In this document: positions 12,396 through 23,527 of the stretch, piece by piece
How positions within the stretch are numbered: the stretch's first letter is position 1
Layout of the letters: the number at the start of each line of letters is the position of its first letter
Source of the DNA: Fundidesulfovibrio magnetotacticus
GTDB lineage: Bacteria; Desulfobacterota; Desulfovibrionia; Desulfovibrionales; Desulfovibrionaceae
Reading direction: 5' to 3'
Assembly: GCF_013019105.1 (NCBI RefSeq)
Contig: NZ_BLTE01000021.1
Location: 1 to 55,337, forward strand
Length of the DNA: 55,337 bases
The notes under the pieces: generated by a model
The model's input: the letters and a program-made list of their open reading frames with translations, nothing else
The model's database searches: none
Told to the model about the DNA's origin: nothing
Made by a program: the position numbers and the translations under genes

Positions 12396-12671
12396 GGTGG
12401 GGCTCCTTTGGTGCGGCGAAAGGGACCCGAAGGTACCCGCCGACCGGGAACCGTTGAACGACGAAAGGTGACAACTTCATGGCGATGGGGTTAAATGACG
12501 GGGCGCGCGGCAGTGCGCGGCGCGACAGGAGGAACGCTCGGGAAGGGGAAAAACGAGACGCGGCGGGGCCGCGAGGGAGCGGACGCCGCAAGGTCATGGA
12601 TTCGTCACACCGCGTGGATACTGAGACGTCGGGGCGCATGGCGCATCCGGCGCGTCCCGAAGGAAGGCCCA

Positions 12672-13877
12672 ATGACCCAGGAATCGCCCGGCAGGAAGAA
12701 CTACGTCATCGACACCAACGTCCTCATCGAAAACCCCAACTCGGTCCGGACGCTTCGCAACGGCAGCGAAAACAACATCTTCATCCCCTACCACGTGCTC
12801 ATGGAGCTGGAAACGCTCAAGAACACGCCCAAGCTGCGCCACATCGTCTCCAAGGTCATCACCAGCCTCATCGAAAACCGCGAGCACATCACCTTCATCC
12901 GCGACGGCGTGGAGGATTCTCCCTACACGCACATCGTGGACAACTACATCCTGCGCGAGATCGAGTCGGCCCAGGGCATCCAGGACCCGATCCTGGTCAC
13001 CAACGACCGGCTGCTCCAGCTGCAGGCGTCGCTGCGCAACATCAAGAGCGAGGAGCTGCGCGATTCCAGGCCCTTCGAGTCCGAGTCGCAGCTCTACACG
13101 GGGTTCGTGGAGGAGGCCGAGGGCGCGCCGCCCAACTCGTTCCTCTGGCGCGAGGGCAAGCCGGTGCTCCTGGCCCCGGACGGCGAGAAGACGGTGGGCT
13201 ACGTCAACGACGTGTGGAACCTCAAGCCGCGCACGGTGTACCAGAATCTGGCGCTGGAGCTTATCGTCTCCCCCCACGTGGACCTGGTGTCCATCCAGAG
13301 CGAGGCGGGCTTCGGCAAGACCTACCTGGCCCTGGCGGCGGCCCTCTACCTGACCCTGGAGCGCAAGGAGCACGAGAAGATCTTCGTGGTGAAGCCCACC
13401 ATCGAGATCGGCGCGAAGCTGGGCTTTTTGCCCGGCGACGTGGCCGAGAAGATGGAGCCCTACATGAAGTACGTCTACGACCTGCTCATCAAGCTGCACA
13501 AGCAGCGCCCGGCCAACAAGCTCTTCACCAACCCCAACGACGAAACCCCGCGCTTCAACCCCAAGAAGTTCGAGGTGCTGCCCCTGGCCTACGTGCGCGG
13601 CATGAACATCGAGAACGCCGTGGTGGTGATCGACGAGGCCCAGAACCTCTCGCGGGCCGAAGTGCGCGCGCTGCTCACACGCATGGGCGAGGGCGTGAAG
13701 TGCGTCTGCCTGGGCGACACCTCCCAGGTGGACAACCCCTACCTCAACGAGGCCAACAACGGCCTCAACTGGATCGTGCGCAAGTTCAAGGGCTTCGACA
13801 ACTACGGGCACATCGTGCTCAAGGGCGACCGCTCGCGCGGGCCCATCACGGACATGGTGCTCAAGAGCAAGCTGTAG
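12672..13877 (+). CDS. PIN-PhoH fusion ATPase (PhoH2/YlaK-like)
   Basis: A 401-residue cytoplasmic protein. The N-terminal PIN nuclease domain (about 10-140) has YVIDTNVLIENP with Asp14 and a later VTNDRLLQ acidic motif. The C-terminal PhoH ATPase (about 190-400) has Walker A at 210-217 (SEAGFGKT, Lys216) and Walker B VVVIDEAQN. PhoH2 proteins of this architecture are reported as RNA helicase/RNases. The first glycine of the usual Walker A is serine here and the next residue is glutamate, a conspicuous variation. ATG 12672 has AAGGA upstream. An in-frame GTG at 12495 would add a non-conserved Arg-rich leader. No antitoxin-like gene is adjacent. Confidence 0.93.
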   Translation: MTQESPGRKNYVIDTNVLIENPNSVRTLRNGSENNIFIPYHVLMELETLKNTPKLRHIVSKVITSLIENREHITFIRDGVEDSPYTHIVDNYILREIESAQGIQDPILVTNDRLLQLQASLRNIKSEELRDSRPFESESQLYTGFVEEAEGAPPNSFLWREGKPVLLAPDGEKTVGYVNDVWNLKPRTVYQNLALELIVSPHVDLVSIQSEAGFGKTYLALAAALYLTLERKEHEKIFVVKPTIEIGAKLGFLPGDVAEKMEPYMKYVYDLLIKLHKQRPANKLFTNPNDETPRFNPKKFEVLPLAYVRGMNIENAVVVIDEAQNLSRAEVRALLTRMGEGVKCVCLGDTSQVDNPYLNEANNGLNWIVRKFKGFDNYGHIVLKGDRSRGPITDMVLKSKL

Positions 13878-16614: not shown

Positions 16615-17169
16615 ATGGCGACATCAGGCAAGTACAAGGCGGAGGCGGCGCTGGACCGCGAGGGTCTCTCGGCATGGCTGCGCGGCCTGGCGGACGCGCT
16701 GGACGCCGGCGAGCTGGCCACGGACACCGGCCCCCTGGCCCTGGAAGGTTTCAAGGGCCTGAAGATATCCTTCAAGGCGGGCTGGCCCCAGGGCTACGCG
16801 GCCAAGCTCTCCGTGAAGTTCCCCCGGCCCGCGCTCGCGCCCGGTGAGGACCCCGCGGACGAGGAGGGCGGCGAAGAAGCCATGCCCAAGTACTCCTCGC
16901 TGAAGAAACACATGAAATACACCTTCAAGGCCATCGGCCAGGCCCTGGCCGCCGGGCAGCTGCCCCCGCTCCAGGAGGCCCGGAGCTTCCTGGCTGATTC
17001 GCGGCTCATGTGCGCCTACTCCGGCAAGGGCGACGAATACTACGCCCACTACCTGGACGCCGTGCAGGCCTTCGAACAGGCCCTGGAACAGAGCGACCTG
17101 GAGGCCCTTGGCCTGGCCTACGGCGAACTGGCCCGGCTCAAGCGGGAGTGCCACTCCCGTCACGCCTAG
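16615..17169 (+). CDS. GAK system XXXCH protein
   Basis: A 184-residue, apparently cytoplasmic protein and first gene of the GAK operon. The N-terminal region (about 18-70, GLSAWLRGLADALDAGEL, then GLKISFKAGWPQGYAAKLSVKF) resembles amphi-Trp domains. An acidic linker (77-89) follows. The helical C-terminal domain (about 92-184) ends in ELARLKRECHSRHA with Cys179-His180, the family's CH motif. That tail recalls the CXXCH of cytochrome c'-like bundles with the first Cys missing (my inference). There is no signal peptide, so ordinary cytochrome maturation is unlikely. A strong GGGAGGAAA site precedes ATG 16615. The biochemical role is unknown. Confidence 0.85.
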   Translation: MATSGKYKAEAALDREGLSAWLRGLADALDAGELATDTGPLALEGFKGLKISFKAGWPQGYAAKLSVKFPRPALAPGEDPADEEGGEEAMPKYSSLKKHMKYTFKAIGQALAAGQLPPLQEARSFLADSRLMCAYSGKGDEYYAHYLDAVQAFEQALEQSDLEALGLAYGELARLKRECHSRHA

Positions 17170-17178
17170 GAGGCCTCC

Positions 17179-18354
17179 GTGACCGCCAAGACCTTCGGGC
17201 TCGTCAAGGCCGGGGGCAAGGCCTGCCAGGAGTTCGACCTGGCCAGCCTGCCCCGTGAAGTCACCGACTGGGACATGGAAACCTACCTGGCCCTCACCTG
17301 CGCGGGCGTCACGCCCGAGCAGGCCCGGGCTGTGCGCACGCCGCCCGCCGCGCATCCGCGCCAGGAGTACGTGCTGGCCGTGCACTGGCACCCCGAGCAG
17401 GTCCCGCTGGATCTCATCCGCGAGCGCCTGGAGGCCATGTACCCCAACGCCCGCGACCAGCTGATCATCCCCACCCAGCACAACCAGATCATGACCTGGG
17501 ACGGCTACGCGGGCGTGGAGGTGGACTGCTACTCCCACGGCTTCAACCGCAAGGTGCAGCTGCTCGTGCACCTCAAGGCCGAACGGGTGGAGCAGGCGGG
17601 CGTGCTGGGGAACATGCTGCGCCACACCTTCAAGTACCGCTCCTCGCAGCTCTTCGAGTACCTGGACGCCCTGTGCGCCCCGGCCTGGGAGGAGCGCCGC
17701 CAGAAGGCCGCGCGCGCCGCGGGCTCCGACGAGGAGGTGGTGGAGTTCACCGCCATCCACGCCGCCCGGCTGCGCGAGATGCTCTCGGCCAACGAGATGC
17801 GCACCCCCGAAGACGCCGTAAAGAACAAGCTCGTGCGCAACTACCTGGACTGCCTGCGCGAATTCTACGACGACCGCCTGATCAACAAGGTGCAGGTGTA
17901 CGCCAAAGCCGTGAAGGAAGTGGTGAAGGAGAATTTCTCCATGGCCTACTTCTACCGCGCCTCGGAGGTGATCGAGGAGGCGCGTTCCCTGGGCGCGGGC
18001 GTGGTGATCCCCCACCCCGAGCAGTTCTGGCCCATCCTCCTGCGCAATTACGACGTGGACGGCATCGAGGTGTGGAACCCCCAGTCGCAGCAGTACACGG
18101 AGTTCCTCATCAGCGTGGTGCTCGACCAGAACCGCCGGGGCTACCACAAGGACAGGCCCCTGCTCATATTCATGGGCGACGACTGCCACATGAGCGAGAA
18201 GCTCAAGAAGCCCGAGGAGCAGGACAGGGACAAGGCCGCCCGCGAGGTGGGCCTTCAGCCCGCCTGGGACGACCTGGGCATCGCCAAGGGGCTCATCGTG
18301 GCGGGGGTGAGCCGCAAGACCGTCATGGACGAATACCGGGCCCGCCTAGGCTGA
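17179..18354 (+). CDS. PHP-like metal-dependent hydrolase candidate of the GAK operon
   Basis: A 391-residue protein of uncertain family. Metal-ligand-like clusters occur in PHP-superfamily order: VHWH (His69, His71), QHNQ (His101), GVEVDCYSHG (Glu114, His120), IPHPEQFWP, DGIEVWNPQ and GDDCHM. This suggests a TIM-barrel phosphoesterase, but the match is by eye. The middle (about 180-270) is helical and charged and does not look like PHP. It starts at GTG 17179 with AGGAGG directly upstream, nine bases after the XXXCH stop, and ends 16 bases before the amphi-Trp gene. It is not one of the named core GAK families I recall, so it may be an extra component. Confidence 0.6.
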   Translation: MTAKTFGLVKAGGKACQEFDLASLPREVTDWDMETYLALTCAGVTPEQARAVRTPPAAHPRQEYVLAVHWHPEQVPLDLIRERLEAMYPNARDQLIIPTQHNQIMTWDGYAGVEVDCYSHGFNRKVQLLVHLKAERVEQAGVLGNMLRHTFKYRSSQLFEYLDALCAPAWEERRQKAARAAGSDEEVVEFTAIHAARLREMLSANEMRTPEDAVKNKLVRNYLDCLREFYDDRLINKVQVYAKAVKEVVKENFSMAYFYRASEVIEEARSLGAGVVIPHPEQFWPILLRNYDVDGIEVWNPQSQQYTEFLISVVLDQNRRGYHKDRPLLIFMGDDCHMSEKLKKPEEQDRDKAAREVGLQPAWDDLGIAKGLIVAGVSRKTVMDEYRARLG

Positions 18355-18370
18355 GGCCCACGGAGCGACG

Positions 18371-18682
18371 ATGGACACACTCAGCGATTCCGAACAGCCC
18401 TCGCGCGAGGGTAAGTTCTCCTACCAGTCCGTGCAGGACGCCGAGAGCCTGGCCGCCTACCTGCGCGCCCTGGCCGACGGCATCGAGCGCGGCAGCATCC
18501 TCTTCGAGCGCAAGGACGCCCGTTTCGTCATGTCTCCGTCGGGGCTCCTGGGCTTCGCCGTGGAGGCCAAGGCCAAGGAAGGGCGCATGAAGCTGGCCCT
18601 CAAGCTCGCCTGGCGCGAGAAAACGGCCGAAAAGGAACGCGAGGAAGACCTCCTGGTGGTCCGGTCCGGAGGCGGTGAGTAG
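18371..18682 (+). CDS. amphi-Trp domain protein
   Basis: A 103-residue small protein. Residues 17-82 show the amphi-Trp pattern: FSYQSVQDAESLAAYLRALA, an amphipathic helix, DGIERGSILF, then strands MSPSGLLGFAVEAKAKEGRM and KLALKLAW ending at Trp81. The tail is charged. Members are small and of unknown function, often encoded beside GAK genes. It lies between the PHP-like gene and the PhoU-kinase gene; the next start is two bases after its stop. The same motif pattern is visible in the XXXCH protein, suggesting the two share a fold. Confidence 0.85.
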   Translation: MDTLSDSEQPSREGKFSYQSVQDAESLAAYLRALADGIERGSILFERKDARFVMSPSGLLGFAVEAKAKEGRMKLALKLAWREKTAEKEREEDLLVVRSGGGE

Positions 18683-18684
18683 CC

Positions 18685-20331
18685 ATGCGTTTTCTGGAGG
18701 GCGTTGAGGAGAACTTCCGCTTCATGGTCCTGGAAGTGACCAAGCAGGTGGAAAACACCCTGAAGGTGCTCGAAAACCCGGACCCCGGCCTCGTCACCAA
18801 GATCGAAAGCCGCGACGACTACATCGACAACCTCAAGAGCGTCATCGAGAACAAGTGCTTCTCGCGCATCCACACCGGGTTCGGCGGCGACAAGCGCGCC
18901 ATCGACATGGCCCGCGCCGTGAACATCATCACCTCCAACCTGGAGCGCCTGGCCGACCATGCGGTGAACATCGTCATGCAGTCGCAGTACCTGCGCGACC
19001 CGGCCTTCATCAAACGCTACGACTACAAGGCCTTCTTCGCCGAGATCATCAAGGCCCTGCGCCTGGTGGTGAAGGCCCTCTTCAACCAGGACATCACCCT
19101 GGCCTTCAAGATCTGCCGCGCCGAAGTGACCCTGGACGCCCTGTTCAAGGAAAACTTCGACATGGTCCTGCGCGACCTGCGCACGGGCGAATCGCCCGAG
19201 AACTGCATCACCGCCCACAACATCTTCCGCTACCTGGAGCGCATGGGCGACACCATCCTGAACATCGGCGAGGCCGTGATCTTCGCCGCCGTGGGCGAGA
19301 AGTTCAAGATCCACCAGTTCGAGGCCCTCAAGGAGAGCCTCTCGGGCCTGGGCCGGGACGTGCCCATCACCGACGGCGAGTTCCAGTCCATCTGGGGCAC
19401 GCGCTCGGGCTGCCGCATCGGCCGGGTGGACGCCGGGCGCAAGGGGCCGCGCTCCAGCGGCGTGCTCTTCAAGGAGGGCAACGCCGTGAAGCTGCGCGCC
19501 GAGGCCGAGAACATCCGCCGCTGGGAGGCCGTGATGCCCGGGCTGCCCCCCAAGGTGCAGGCCTTCCACGTGGACGGCGACTCGGCCAGCATGCTCATGG
19601 AATACCTGGGCGGCTGCACCTACCAGGAGGTGGTGCTCTCCGGCGCGCCCGAGATTGCCGCCAACGCCACCTTCGTCCTGGAGCAGACCACCCGCCAGCT
19701 CTGGCAGGACACCCGCCGCCCCGGACCCGTCAAGGCGGGCTACGTGCGCCAGCTCTCCTCCCGCCTGGACGACGTGTTCCGCATGCATCCGGGCTTCAGG
19801 CGGGGCGAAATGCGCCTGGCGGGCAGGCGCATCCCCGGCTTCGACGAGGTGCTGCGCCGCGCCGAGGAGGCCGAGACCTCCCTCGAGGCCCCCTTCAGCG
19901 TGCTCATCCACGGCGACTTCAACAGCAACAACATCGTCTACTCCCACGACGAGGAGCGCATCCACTACATCGACCTGCACCGCTCCCGCGACACCGATTA
20001 CGTCCAGGACGTGTCCGTGTTTCTCCTCTCCAACTTTCGCCTTCCCGTGCTGGACACCCTGCTGCGCGCCCGACTCGACCGCGTGATCCGCCAGTTCCTG
20101 GCCTTCTCGCGCGAGTTCGCCGTCGAGGCCGGGGACGCCTCCTTCGAGGCCCGCCTCGCCCTGGGCCTGGCCCGCTCCTTCATCACGTCCAGCCGTTTCG
20201 AATTCAACCAGGGCTTCGCGCGGGAGATGTTCCTGCGCGGGGTCTACCTCCTGGAGTCCGCCGCAGACTTCGGGGATTCCGGCAAACCCTGGAGCGCGTA
20301 CGTCCTGCCGGACGCCGTGCTCATCTATTGA
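18685..20331 (+). CDS. PhoU-domain / APH-like kinase fusion protein
   Basis: A 548-residue two-part protein. The N-terminal ~215 residues are a helical PhoU-like bundle (DYIDNLKSVIENKC, NIITSNLERLADHAVNI, LERMGDTILNIGEAV). The C-terminal ~310 residues resemble aminoglycoside phosphotransferase/choline-kinase folds. LIHGDFNSNNIVY (His409, Asp411, Asn416) is the catalytic loop, and YIDLHRSRDTDYVQD (Asp430) is the Mg-binding motif. It would phosphorylate a small molecule or protein under control of a PhoU-like module; the substrate is unknown. ATG 18685 follows the amphi-Trp stop by two bases. The fusion is unusual compared with stand-alone PhoU regulators of phosphate transport. Confidence 0.82.
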   Translation: MRFLEGVEENFRFMVLEVTKQVENTLKVLENPDPGLVTKIESRDDYIDNLKSVIENKCFSRIHTGFGGDKRAIDMARAVNIITSNLERLADHAVNIVMQSQYLRDPAFIKRYDYKAFFAEIIKALRLVVKALFNQDITLAFKICRAEVTLDALFKENFDMVLRDLRTGESPENCITAHNIFRYLERMGDTILNIGEAVIFAAVGEKFKIHQFEALKESLSGLGRDVPITDGEFQSIWGTRSGCRIGRVDAGRKGPRSSGVLFKEGNAVKLRAEAENIRRWEAVMPGLPPKVQAFHVDGDSASMLMEYLGGCTYQEVVLSGAPEIAANATFVLEQTTRQLWQDTRRPGPVKAGYVRQLSSRLDDVFRMHPGFRRGEMRLAGRRIPGFDEVLRRAEEAETSLEAPFSVLIHGDFNSNNIVYSHDEERIHYIDLHRSRDTDYVQDVSVFLLSNFRLPVLDTLLRARLDRVIRQFLAFSREFAVEAGDASFEARLALGLARSFITSSRFEFNQGFAREMFLRGVYLLESAADFGDSGKPWSAYVLPDAVLIY

Positions 20332-20346
20332 GGCCAAGGAGCCGTG

Positions 20347-21222
20347 ATGAAGAAGATAGGAGTTGTGGGGCTCACGGACGGCTGGTCCTCGGAGGTCCTG
20401 GCCGACGCGTGCGGGAAGCTCACGGGCTTCCGCCTCCTGGTGGACATGGACAAGGCCGTGCTGGACCTGGACGCCGGGACCGTGCGCCACGAGGGTCAGG
20501 ACCTCCTGGAGCTGGACGCCCTGATCGTCAAGAAGATCGCCCCCCAGTATTCCCCCGACGTGCTCGACCGCCTGGAGATGCTGCGCTTTCTGGAGCTGCG
20601 GGGCCTGCCGGTGTTCTCGCGGCCCTCGTCCATCCTGCGCCTGGTGGACCGCCTGAGCTGCACCGTCACGCTGCGCGCCGCCGGGCTGCCCATGCCGCCC
20701 ACGGTGGTCACCGAGAGCGTCGAGGAGGCCCGCGACGCCGTGGAGCGCTTCGGCCGGGCCGTGTTCAAACCGCTGTACTCCACCAAGGCCCGGGGCATGG
20801 AGGTCATCGAGGCCGGGCCGGACGCCCTGCGTCGCGTGCAGGCCTTCAAGGACGCGGGCAACGCGGTGATGTACCTCCAGAAGATGCTCCCGCCCCTGGA
20901 AAAGGATCTGGGCGTCACCTACCTGGGCGGCAAATACCTGGCCACCTACGCCCGCAAGTCCGGCGGGTCGAGCTGGAACACCACCACGGCCGCCGGAGGG
21001 CGCTACGTGGCCCACGAGCCCTCTGCCGAGATCGTGGCCCTGGCCGAGAAGGCCCAGTCGCTCTTCGACATGGCCTTCACCTGCGTGGACGTGGCCGAAA
21101 CGGCCCAAGGCCCCATCGTCTTCGAGGTGTCGGCCTTCGGCGGCTTCCGGGGCCTGCGGGACGCCTGCGGCATCGACGCGGCCCAGGCCTACGCCAAGCA
21201 TGTTCTGGAGGTCCTGTCGTGA
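20347..21222 (+). CDS. GAK system ATP-grasp enzyme
   Basis: A 291-residue RimK-like ATP-grasp protein. The N-terminal part (KKIGVVGLTDGWSSEVLAD, then LDALIVKKIAPQYSP) is the pre-ATP-grasp domain. RPSSILRLVDRLSCTVTLRAAGLPMPPT, split over the hinge, precedes the ATP-binding FKPLYSTKARGMEV. VFEVSAFGGFRGLRDACG is the C-terminal metal/substrate region. The family makes carboxylate-amine bonds such as peptide-like links; the substrate here is unknown. I prefer ATG 20347 because AAGGAG is five bases upstream; the GTG at 20344 is too close. Its stop overlaps the next start (GTGA). Confidence 0.87.
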   Translation: MKKIGVVGLTDGWSSEVLADACGKLTGFRLLVDMDKAVLDLDAGTVRHEGQDLLELDALIVKKIAPQYSPDVLDRLEMLRFLELRGLPVFSRPSSILRLVDRLSCTVTLRAAGLPMPPTVVTESVEEARDAVERFGRAVFKPLYSTKARGMEVIEAGPDALRRVQAFKDAGNAVMYLQKMLPPLEKDLGVTYLGGKYLATYARKSGGSSWNTTTAAGGRYVAHEPSAEIVALAEKAQSLFDMAFTCVDVAETAQGPIVFEVSAFGGFRGLRDACGIDAAQAYAKHVLEVLS

Positions 21223-22337
21223 GCGCATCCACCGCTTCCTCCCCGTCGAACTCCGTGGCCGGGCTCATGGACCGCTACGCCACCCAATGGGCCGCGCCCC
21301 ACGCCGTGCGCCTGGCCCTGGGCGCCTGGCGCGCCGATCTGCGCACCAACGACCTCGAGCTGGCCGGATGGCTGCGCGCCTACTTCCGCGATTTCCTGGC
21401 CGACGACGACGCGGCCCCGCCCGCGCCCTGCCAGCTGCTGGCCCTGGAAACCCCGCCCCAGGACCTGGGCCTGCGCTACGCCACGCGCGAGCCGGACCCG
21501 GGCAAGACCAAGGTCAAGGAGGAGTACGCCGACCTCCCCGACGGGCGCGTGGTGCGCAAGCGCCTCACGGGCATGGTGTTCGTCTTCGGAGAGGGCCGCA
21601 ACCTGGCCCTGGGGCCCTGCCGGGAGAACCCCAACCAGGTGGTGAACTTCGTCAACAACCGCTTCATCGAGCACAAGCTCCACCAGGGCTGCCTGCTGGG
21701 CCACGCGGCCGGAGTGGCCCATGGCGGGCAGGGCCTGGCCCTGGCCGGGTTCTCGGGCATGGGCAAGTCCACCCTGGCCCTGCACCTGATGAACCATGGG
21801 CTCGATTTCGTCTCCAACGACCGCGTCCTGGTGGGGAAGGACAACGGGGATCTCATGATGTACGGGGTGGCCAAGATGCCGCGCGTGAACCCCGGCACCG
21901 TGCTCCACAACCCCTCCCTGGCCCCGGTAATCCCCCCGGCGGACCGCGAGGCCTTCCGCGCCCTGCCCCAGGACGAACTCTGGACCCTGGAGCACAAGTA
22001 CGACGCCTTCATCGACCAGTGCTACGGTCCCGGGCGCTTCCGCATCGAGGCGCGCATGAAGGGGCTGGCCATCCTCAACTGGTCGCGCGCGGGGCAGGGG
22101 CTCAACGTGGCGGCCGTGGACATCGCCCGGCGGCGCGACCTCCTGGAGGCCTTCATGAAATCCACGGGCCTCTTCTACGAGGAGCCCGAGGGCGCGCACG
22201 CCCCGGACTTCTCCGAAGACGCCTACGTGGACATGCTCGCGGGCTGCACGGTGCTGGAGGTGACGGGCCGCGCGGACTTCGAGGAGGCCGCCCGCGTGCT
22301 GGCGGGGTTCCTCAAGGGAGAGGGCGCGGGGGCATGA
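21219..22337 (+). CDS. HprK-related kinase B
   Basis: A 372-residue protein whose P-loop GFSGMGKST (177-185, Lys183) and following DFVSNDRVLVG (Asp201) match the arrangement of HPr kinase/phosphorylase. The N-terminal ~170 residues (LTGMVFVFGEGRNLALGPC, FVNNRFIEHKLHQG) are specific to the HprK-related B group. No HPr or PTS gene is present, so the substrate is probably not HPr. It starts at GTG 21219 inside the ATP-grasp stop and ends in an ATGA overlap with the CofD-like gene, so all three are translationally coupled. Confidence 0.87.
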   Translation: MSASTASSPSNSVAGLMDRYATQWAAPHAVRLALGAWRADLRTNDLELAGWLRAYFRDFLADDDAAPPAPCQLLALETPPQDLGLRYATREPDPGKTKVKEEYADLPDGRVVRKRLTGMVFVFGEGRNLALGPCRENPNQVVNFVNNRFIEHKLHQGCLLGHAAGVAHGGQGLALAGFSGMGKSTLALHLMNHGLDFVSNDRVLVGKDNGDLMMYGVAKMPRVNPGTVLHNPSLAPVIPPADREAFRALPQDELWTLEHKYDAFIDQCYGPGRFRIEARMKGLAILNWSRAGQGLNVAAVDIARRRDLLEAFMKSTGLFYEEPEGAHAPDFSEDAYVDMLAGCTVLEVTGRADFEEAARVLAGFLKGEGAGA

Positions 22338-23527
22338 CGAAGGTCACGGTCACGCACACGGTGCGTCTGCCCGATCCGGTGAAGATCGCGCGCTATCTCA
22401 AGGCCCCGGAGCTGGGGCCGCGCGTGCTCTTCTTCAGCGGCGGCACGGCCCTGCGCGACCTCTCGCGGGAGCTGGTGCGCTACACGCACAACTCCATGCA
22501 CCTCATCACGCCCTTCGACTCAGGCGGCTCCTCGGCCAAGCTGCGCAAGAGCTTCGGGATGCTGGCCGTGGGCGACCTGCGCAACCGGCTCATGGCCCTG
22601 GCCGACCGCACCCTGCACGGCAACCCCGAGATCTACGCCCTCTTCGCCCGCCGCCTGCCCAAGGACCAGCCCCAGGAGGCCCTGCGCGAGGAGCTGGAGG
22701 GCCTCATCGCCGGGCGCGACCCCCTGGTGGCCGCCGTGCCCGACCCCATGCGCAAGATCATCCGCACCCACCTGAAGTTCTTCGCCCAGGCCATGGAGCG
22801 CACGCCCTTCGACCTGCGCGGGGCCAGCGTCGGCAACCTGATCCTGGCCGGGGGCTTCTTCAACTACAACCGTCAGATCGACCCGGTGATCTACATGTTC
22901 TCCATGCTCGTGAAGGCCCGGGGGCTGGTGCGCCCCATCATCAACCGCGACCTGACCCTCTGCGCCGAGCTCGACGACGGCTCGGTGCTGGCCGGGCAGC
23001 ACCTGCTCACGGGCAAGGAGAGCGGCCCCGTGGGGCGCAAGGTGCGCCGCGTGTGGCTCTCGCGCGGACAGGAGGACACGGCGCCCGTGGAGATCGACGT
23101 GCGCCGCAAGGTGAAGGAGAACATCCTCTCCGCAGAGTTGATCTGCTACCCCATCGGCAGCTTCTACTCCTCGGTGGTGGCCAACCTGCTGCCCCGGGGC
23201 GTGGGCGACGCCGTGAGCAAGGCCCAGTGCCCCAAGGTGTTCGTGCCCAACCCCGCCGGAGACCCGGAGCAGTACGGCCTGGGTTTGGGCGAGAGCGTGC
23301 GCGCCCTGCTGGAATACCTGCGCGCCAGCTGCACCAAGCCCCGCCCCGCCAACACGCTTTTGAACCACGTGCTCATCGACCGGCGGCGCAACTACCAGGA
23401 ACCCCACGGCCTGCGCCAGATCGAGGCCATGGGCATCGGCGTCATCGAGGCCGACCTGGAGAGCGCCGCGCGCGCCCCCTACTTCGACGAGCAGGCGGTC
23501 ATAGAGAACCTGCTCTCCCTGGCCTGA
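22334..23527 (+). CDS. GAK system CofD-related protein
   Basis: A 397-residue protein of the CofD/YvcK fold. Visible motifs are FFSGGTALRDLSREL (SGGT at 35-38), TPFDSGGSSAKLRKSFGMLA (59-78), GDLRNRL (80-86), ASVGNLILAG (near 165) and YPIGSFYSSVVANLLP. CofD transfers a phospholactyl group to form coenzyme F420, and YvcK regulates cell-wall metabolism. The GAK version is distinct and its reaction is unknown. No other F420 biosynthesis gene is in the window. It is last in the operon. The next gene converges 10 bases away, and I saw no obvious terminator in that gap. Confidence 0.88.
   Translation: MTKVTVTHTVRLPDPVKIARYLKAPELGPRVLFFSGGTALRDLSRELVRYTHNSMHLITPFDSGGSSAKLRKSFGMLAVGDLRNRLMALADRTLHGNPEIYALFARRLPKDQPQEALREELEGLIAGRDPLVAAVPDPMRKIIRTHLKFFAQAMERTPFDLRGASVGNLILAGGFFNYNRQIDPVIYMFSMLVKARGLVRPIINRDLTLCAELDDGSVLAGQHLLTGKESGPVGRKVRRVWLSRGQEDTAPVEIDVRRKVKENILSAELICYPIGSFYSSVVANLLPRGVGDAVSKAQCPKVFVPNPAGDPEQYGLGLGESVRALLEYLRASCTKPRPANTLLNHVLIDRRRNYQEPHGLRQIEAMGIGVIEADLESAARAPYFDEQAVIENLLSLA

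Follow-up and report, generated by a model that had tools for sequence, protein, structure and literature searches.

What task could hold together seven bacterial genes that have no assigned pathway? The question is raised by a 55,337-nucleotide stretch of DNA from Fundidesulfovibrio magnetotacticus (contig NZ_BLTE01000021.1, positions 1 to 55,337; hereafter, the window), which carries an operon of the GAK system, a gene set named in NCBIfam (TIGR04354-TIGR04358). Our preferred answer, to which we assign a probability of about 40%, is that the operon encodes a cytosolic, phosphate-linked pathway making, editing, and degrading a phosphorylated small molecule, either a cofactor or a messenger. 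The original prediction, made from the letters of the window, had described seven coupled plus-strand genes at 16615-23527, and all were found at that place. Intergenic gaps of 9, 16, 2, and 12 bases are followed by two 4-base overlaps; the fourth gap is the predicted 15 bases if the ATP-grasp start is taken as the ATG at 20347.

16615..17169, plus strand: XXXCH protein, 184 amino acids (TIGR04358, 94.7 bits)
17179..18354, plus strand: PHP-like protein, 391 amino acids, GTG start (by predicted fold; no Pfam or NCBIfam family)
18371..18682, plus strand: amphi-Trp protein, 103 amino acids (TIGR04354, 66.7 bits; PF20068, 37.3 bits)
18685..20331, plus strand: PhoU-kinase fusion, with PhoU at residues ~4-206 and an APH-type kinase at ~267-465 (PF01895, 90.7 bits; EcKL, 36.2 bits; APH, 28.3 bits)
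20344..21222, plus strand: GAK ATP-grasp enzyme, 292 amino acids (TIGR04356, 437 bits)
21219..22337, plus strand: HprK-related kinase B (HprK-B), 372 amino acids, GTG start (TIGR04355, 517 bits)
22334..23527, plus strand: CofD-like protein, probably GlmR/YvcK-type, 397 amino acids (TIGR04357, 526 bits; PF01933, 122 bits)

Five of these genes exceed the curated NCBIfam cut-offs for GAK families (XXXCH, amphi-Trp, grasp_GAK, HprK_rel_B, and CofD_rel_GAK). The adjacent ATP-grasp, HprK-B, and CofD-like genes score 437, 517, and 526 bits against cut-offs of 300, 200, and 340, and the window operon, with all five named families, is a typical member of this named, uncharacterized system. The PHP-like and PhoU-kinase proteins are unnamed in NCBIfam's GAK set, yet co-occur with it to a comparable degree. 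A Pfam scan returned no family for genes 1 and 2. As the original prediction had it, no pathway is assigned: our literature search, with subscription journals mostly outside its reach, found no paper on the GAK system and no function for it, and the GAK family terms searched are not present in the main text of PMC12389409. One candidate hit was rejected; the "XXXCH" in PMC8879037 is a phage tail-fiber protein.

Co-inheritance was surveyed across 297 genomes drawn from the host phylum. The ATP-grasp gene was detected in 23 (20 above cut-off), the CofD-like gene in 26 (24 above cut-off), PhoU-kinase in 22, PHP in 21, and HprK-B in 20. In the co-occurrence table, which omits weak rows (G208 and G252 for ATP-grasp, at 1e-42 to 1e-44, and G269 for CofD), all five enzymes were present in 15 of the 34 positive genomes, with Fisher p values of 2e-14 to 3e-30 across the ten enzyme pairs, uncorrected for kinship. 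Among 21 ATP-grasp genomes, HprK-B and PhoU-kinase each appeared in 20 (a different genome lacking each) and jointly in 19, PHP in 17, and the CofD-like gene in 16; some incomplete genomes are drafts whose contigs end at the locus. The GAK families are therefore a co-inherited set, as predicted. Because the co-occurrence of PHP and PhoU-kinase with the ATP-grasp gene is comparable to that of HprK-B, both belong to the system, and we identify them here as core parts as much as the enzymes behind the name.

The original prediction had held that families found independently would speak against a shared pathway. Such occurrence was seen for some families: the CofD-like gene is the only one of the five enzymes present in 9 of its 25 genomes (seven of the nine from one genus), PHP stands alone in 2 of 21 and with PhoU-kinase but no remaining enzyme in 2, and 7 of the 20 genomes with XXXCH above cut-off lack the GAK ATP-grasp gene that accompanies it in the other 13. 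A further 13 genomes have sub-cut-off XXXCH matches, none with a GAK ATP-grasp gene. The F. magnetotacticus genome itself holds a second XXXCH gene and four amphi-Trp genes, three of them outside the operon. Neither small protein is exclusive to the GAK system, and both are looser members of it.

Of 29 loci bearing a GAK ATP-grasp gene, 15 have the exact order PHP/amphi-Trp/PhoU-kinase/ATP-grasp/HprK-B/CofD, a count that leaves out plasmid loci and two loci with divergent ATP-grasp genes (L031 and L051). Among the 14 others, seven end at contig ends (L012, L027, L028, L029, L032, L034, and L037), L026 is rearranged, genes are broken at L038, cofD is missing from L048 and PHP from L095, L044 stops after ATP-grasp, and L045 and L046 have the set in two separate places. 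L047, counted among the 15, carries hprKB as two overlapping open reading frames (ORFs). The split set belongs to two genomes of genus g4, where the first part reads XXXCH-PHP-amphi-PhoU-kinase-HprK-B (L072 and L073) and the second, at L045, runs from ATP-grasp-HprK-B to CofD with AhpC, pta, and ackA in between; L046 is arranged in the same way, with inner genes known just as similar ORFs. In a second phylum, sampled around a center genome titled Phycisphaerae, the ATP-grasp cut-off is passed by 2 of 149 genomes, the center included, and G405 retains the order from amphi-Trp to CofD, with PHP not seen in the stretch. Gene order is thus conserved into a second phylum, and a block kept across families and two phyla, and present on plasmids of a third, must serve some useful purpose.

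The surroundings of these genes offer a first testable clue to function, as phosphate-uptake genes are frequent neighbors. Pst, PhoU, PIT/DUF47, or PhoH2 lay near 18 of 47 GAK-type loci and none of 40 control stretches (20 kilobases (kb) each, from 13 related genomes; p 2e-6); with kin collapsed, the counts were 10 of 37 and 0 of 40 (p 3e-4). The 47 loci take in the divergent relatives L031, L051, and L065 plus L097 (on the contig of L028), none of them positive, and exclude fragments or duplicates (L012, L032, L066, L074, L096, and L098) and the later plasmid loci. Seven of the 18 positives come from one genus, in which PIT/DUF47 lies near a lone CofD-like gene with another gene in between. 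In the clearest cases, pstSCAB lies 0.8 kb upstream of the GAK genes on the same strand (L029), pstSCAB-phoU precedes cofD (L063), pstSCAB-phoU-phoH2 adjoins the operon (L050), the neighbors include phoU and a histidine kinase (L047), or phoU is near a lone PHP gene (L067). Ten Pst/PhoU proteins of L029, L050, L063, and L067 exceeded NCBIfam cut-offs on re-test. PhoH2 was within the stretch at 8 of the 47 loci and none of the 40 controls; the window is among the eight, its gene lying ~2.7 kb upstream of the operon and outside it:

12495..13877, plus strand: PIN-PhoH (PhoH2) gene (PF02562 and PF13638)

Outside the phylum, phosphate-scavenging neighbors were found in one of five plasmid regions, that of Alloyangia, in which a lone GAK CofD-like gene stands among genes annotated as NUDIX, PhoX, inositol monophosphatase, and ugpC.

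Plasmids also inform on the role of gene 2, which is probably a PHP-like metal-dependent phosphoesterase by predicted fold only. Its structure model, of moderate confidence (mean predicted local distance difference test score (pLDDT) 73.7), matches RNase AM and BAD_1165 (probability 1.00, E-value (E) 1.8e-4 to 6.4e-4, template-modeling score 0.38-0.51). A Pfam PHP match was present in 0 of 20 relatives, and a PDB profile search with the family gave chance-level matches only. Residues H69, H71, E73, H101, E114, H131, H279, D334, D335, and H337 are invariant in 20 of 20 aligned sequences and are candidate metal ligands. The ATP-grasp gene occurs on five plasmid records, all from Rhodobacterales genera. 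On each of the three examined in detail, PhoU-kinase, ATP-grasp, HprK-B, histidine phosphatase, metallophosphoesterase, and amphi-Trp genes are consecutive; a divergent CofD-like gene adjoins in two, one of which also has a NUDIX gene. The PhoU half of these plasmid-borne kinases gives a weak match (Pfam E 2.4e-5 for L145). A search of the plasmid collection at 1e-10 found no PHP, the chromosomes of the plasmid-bearing strains not being part of that search. On these three plasmids, we find, a histidine phosphatase and a metallophosphoesterase stand in the place of PHP. A phosphate-removing step seems to be part of the GAK task, whichever fold supplies it, and the description of the seven genes as complete was too narrow, since other lineages add a histidine phosphatase, a metallophosphoesterase, or a NUDIX protein.

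For the ATP-grasp enzyme of the window, the next best model was MptN (136 bits against a cut-off of 350), which also matched 22 of 22 GAK ATP-grasp members. The nearest other named family is accordingly that of the alpha-glutamate ligases MptN and MyfB, which act in tetrahydromethanopterin and methylofuran synthesis; the MptN-like MyfB of Methylorubrum was identified as a methylofuran glutamate ligase, according to PMC8141765. The GAK enzyme differs from these ligases in its glycine loop, D-x-R, and EVN motifs and lies in another operon. A divergent sister at L051, amid mch, fhcD, fhcA, and fhcC, scores 153 bits to grasp_GAK (cut-off 300) and is 27% identical to the GAK enzyme; L031 resembles L051 when judged by eye. 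Alignment of six GAK members with L051 and L031 revealed consistent changes at the same three motifs. D249 and E261 are common to the GAK enzyme and its sister, and the R and N positions are altered in the aligned GAK members; we take all four to be the metal and acyl-phosphate residues of RimK-type enzymes. By sequence comparison, newly made here, cofactor glutamate ligases are the closest kin of the GAK ATP-grasp enzyme, which has three consistent active-site changes.

The kinases and the CofD-like protein bear on whether functions can be borrowed from better known relatives, namely a cofactor pathway of the F420 type or the classical phosphorylation of HPr. In favor are the CofD-like protein, which passes Pfam PF01933 (122 bits against a gathering threshold of 30, at a superfamily level that includes YvcK types), the CofF (F420 ligase) model, which hits 3 of the 22 ATP-grasp members at 1e-5 or below, and an HPr gene at C3:241688-241918, outside the window. 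Because the genome carries this gene, the statement in the original prediction that there is no HPr holds for the window only. Against borrowing, NCBIfam searches of the CofD-like protein at E up to 0.1 list CofD_rel_GAK and YvcK with no F420 CofD model, and the window ATP-grasp enzyme scores 11.9 bits to CofF (cut-off 300). HprK-B has the P-loop GFSGMGKST and an SND motif, yet its match to the HPr kinase model (27.6 bits, cut-off 240) spans only residues 148-211, ~64 residues around the P-loop; the likeness is confined to the P-loop/SND region, and HprK-B falls outside the HPr kinase/phosphorylase family. We consider borrowed function very improbable, in agreement with the original prediction.

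We find instead that the CofD-like protein resembles GlmR/YvcK rather than F420 CofD in sequence. It scores 107.5 bits to the YvcK model TIGR01826 (cut-off 196), as a relative and not a member, and the five solved sequences matched by its family profile are UPF0052/YvcK-type or unnamed proteins. Its DSGGSS...GDxRNRLMAL core and C-terminal GSFYSS region align with GlmR. Where the GlmR motif has its second Asp, however, the GAK family has an invariant Ser, and some members carry Ser in place of the Asn that we match to Listeria N198. GlmR is reported to be a uridyltransferase (PMC10128056). This kinship and the phosphate-gene neighborhood are consistent with a regulatory module, in which a GlmR-type sensor, kinases, and a PhoU domain would tune carbon and phosphate flow through protein contacts with little product chemistry. 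Further in its favor are AhpC, pta, and ackA between hprKB and cofD at L045 (similar ORFs at L046) and ackA adjoining the PHP-amphi-PhoU-kinase trio at L068, which lacks other GAK genes. A purely regulatory role needs no catalytic-type motifs, yet PHP, PhoU-kinase, and HprK-B retain them invariantly; in PhoU-kinase, H409-G410-D411, N413, N416, and D430 are invariant in 21 of 21 sequences, and the HGD-x-N...D set is also kept in nine diverse members. We judge such a module unlikely, and rank it third. A phage link of PhoU-kinase was rejected, as none of 50,697 phage records matched it at 1e-10.

The second-ranked alternative, protein modification, concerns the small proteins. XXXCH comprises an N-terminal amphi-Trp-like domain (~5-69; TIGR04354 at 17.5 bits, under the cut-off of 31) and a cytochrome c'-type four-helix domain (93-182) that ends with one Cys-His pair; this pair (C179-H180) is invariant across all 14 sequences compared. 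Cytochrome c' is matched by its profile in the PDB (E 8.4e-6) and provides the top Foldseek matches of its structure model (pLDDT 82.4, 5 sequences; probability 1.00, best E 4.7e-3, none at 0.001). Profile and model thus newly point to a cytochrome c'-type domain, which shares the four-helix fold and C-terminal CH with cytochrome c' and differs in lacking the first, heme-linking Cys of CXXCH. XXXCH is presumably cytosolic, because no signal peptide was seen by eye. In amphi-Trp, W81 is invariant in 26 of 26, and a PDB profile search gave chance-level matches only. Up to three amphi-Trp-type ORFs occur per GAK locus, and extra copies bear long Lys/Ala-rich or Glu-rich tails (L035:12811-13254 and L033:6824-7189); the charge of these tails suggests binding to a charged polymer.

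Under protein modification, amphi-Trp and XXXCH would be substrates of HprK-B and PhoU-kinase, the RimK-like enzyme would extend tails, and the phosphoesterase would reverse the modification. HprK and RimK relatives do act on proteins, and small non-enzymatic proteins, some with long charged tails, are encoded in or beside the operon. However, operon-internal amphi-Trp lacks any invariant Ser, Thr, or Tyr (the closest candidate, S20, is replaced by Ala in 2 of 20), APH-type kinases mostly modify small molecules, and the ATP-grasp family closest to the GAK enzymes consists of cofactor ligases. We regard this alternative as rather unlikely and favor the small-molecule pathway over both it and pure regulation.

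For that pathway, we infer every reaction, the step order, and the product from the observed kinship, co-inheritance, neighborhood, phosphoesterase difference, and conserved residues. PhoU-kinase and HprK-B would phosphorylate the substrate, and the PhoU half could tie PhoU-kinase to phosphate status. The GlmR-type CofD-like protein may activate or transfer a nucleotide-linked or phosphorylated group, and the ATP-grasp enzyme, a relative of MptN/MyfB, may attach either an amino acid or one more phosphate. Removal of phosphate, which would reset the system, would fall to PHP or, elsewhere, to the histidine phosphatase and metallophosphoesterase, with amphi-Trp and XXXCH as possible small carriers or binding partners. 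The assembly or phosphorylation of a small product foreseen in the original prediction fits this gene content, and the phosphate link, varied phosphatase types, and two added core enzymes make the function concretely testable.

Several points weigh against a phosphate-linked small-molecule pathway. No metabolite, phenotype, or expression datum was found for GAK genes, and the small proteins of the operon could instead be substrates. Ligase activity of the ATP-grasp enzyme is uncertain, because three active-site places differ from its sister. Among the 18 loci with phosphate genes, six, including the window and two close kin, have PhoH2 only, which is tied to phosphate by name alone; Pst/PhoU alone accounts for 5 of 47 loci (L029, L047, L050, L063, and L067) versus 0 of 40 controls (p 0.04), and 29 of the 47 have none of the phosphate genes searched. 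The query families were picked after the loci had been viewed, and the control positions were hand-picked. Three GAK plasmid operons and a lone Catenovulum CofD-like gene have no annotated phosphate-uptake neighbor. In a PhoB-box scan upstream of 26 genes with the E. coli consensus, a form of which is quoted in PMC3333781, 25 failed to outscore the best of 30 single-base shuffles; L047 was the one exception. According to PMC3333781, the targets of PhoB in D. vulgaris include pst, phoU, and pta-ack genes, and GAK genes are not named in the accessible part of that source.

By analogy, GAK might be a bacterial phosphate-messenger system, a counterpart of eukaryotic inositol pyrophosphates, although we consider this a long shot. 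The ATP-grasp enzyme and kinases would make a highly phosphorylated signal, a histidine phosphatase, NUDIX protein, or PHP would degrade it, and the PhoU and GlmR-type domains would connect it with phosphate uptake. In that case, the changes in the ATP-grasp active site would be the mark of a kinase, not a ligase. Eukaryotic PPIP5K/NUDIX turnover, as outlined in the accessible literature, has similar folds (ATP-grasp, histidine phosphatase, and NUDIX) and a phosphate link, but Pfam and NCBIfam matches of the operon proteins include no inositol-kinase family, and the likeness is one of analogy only.

Three minor observations complete the survey. Acetate kinase or phosphotransacetylase genes adjoin GAK modules in two lineages (L068:6788-7990 and L045:12344-15690). 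At L038 (G046), the PHP, PhoU-kinase, and CofD genes of the GAK operon are interrupted by stops, as in a decaying or poorly assembled copy. In the F. magnetotacticus genome, a second amphi-Trp gene (L100:5837-6190, on C8) lies ~0.8 kb upstream of a dsrMKJOP-like run, in which RsbRD-type and 4Fe-4S proteins were assigned by Pfam and the others by eye.

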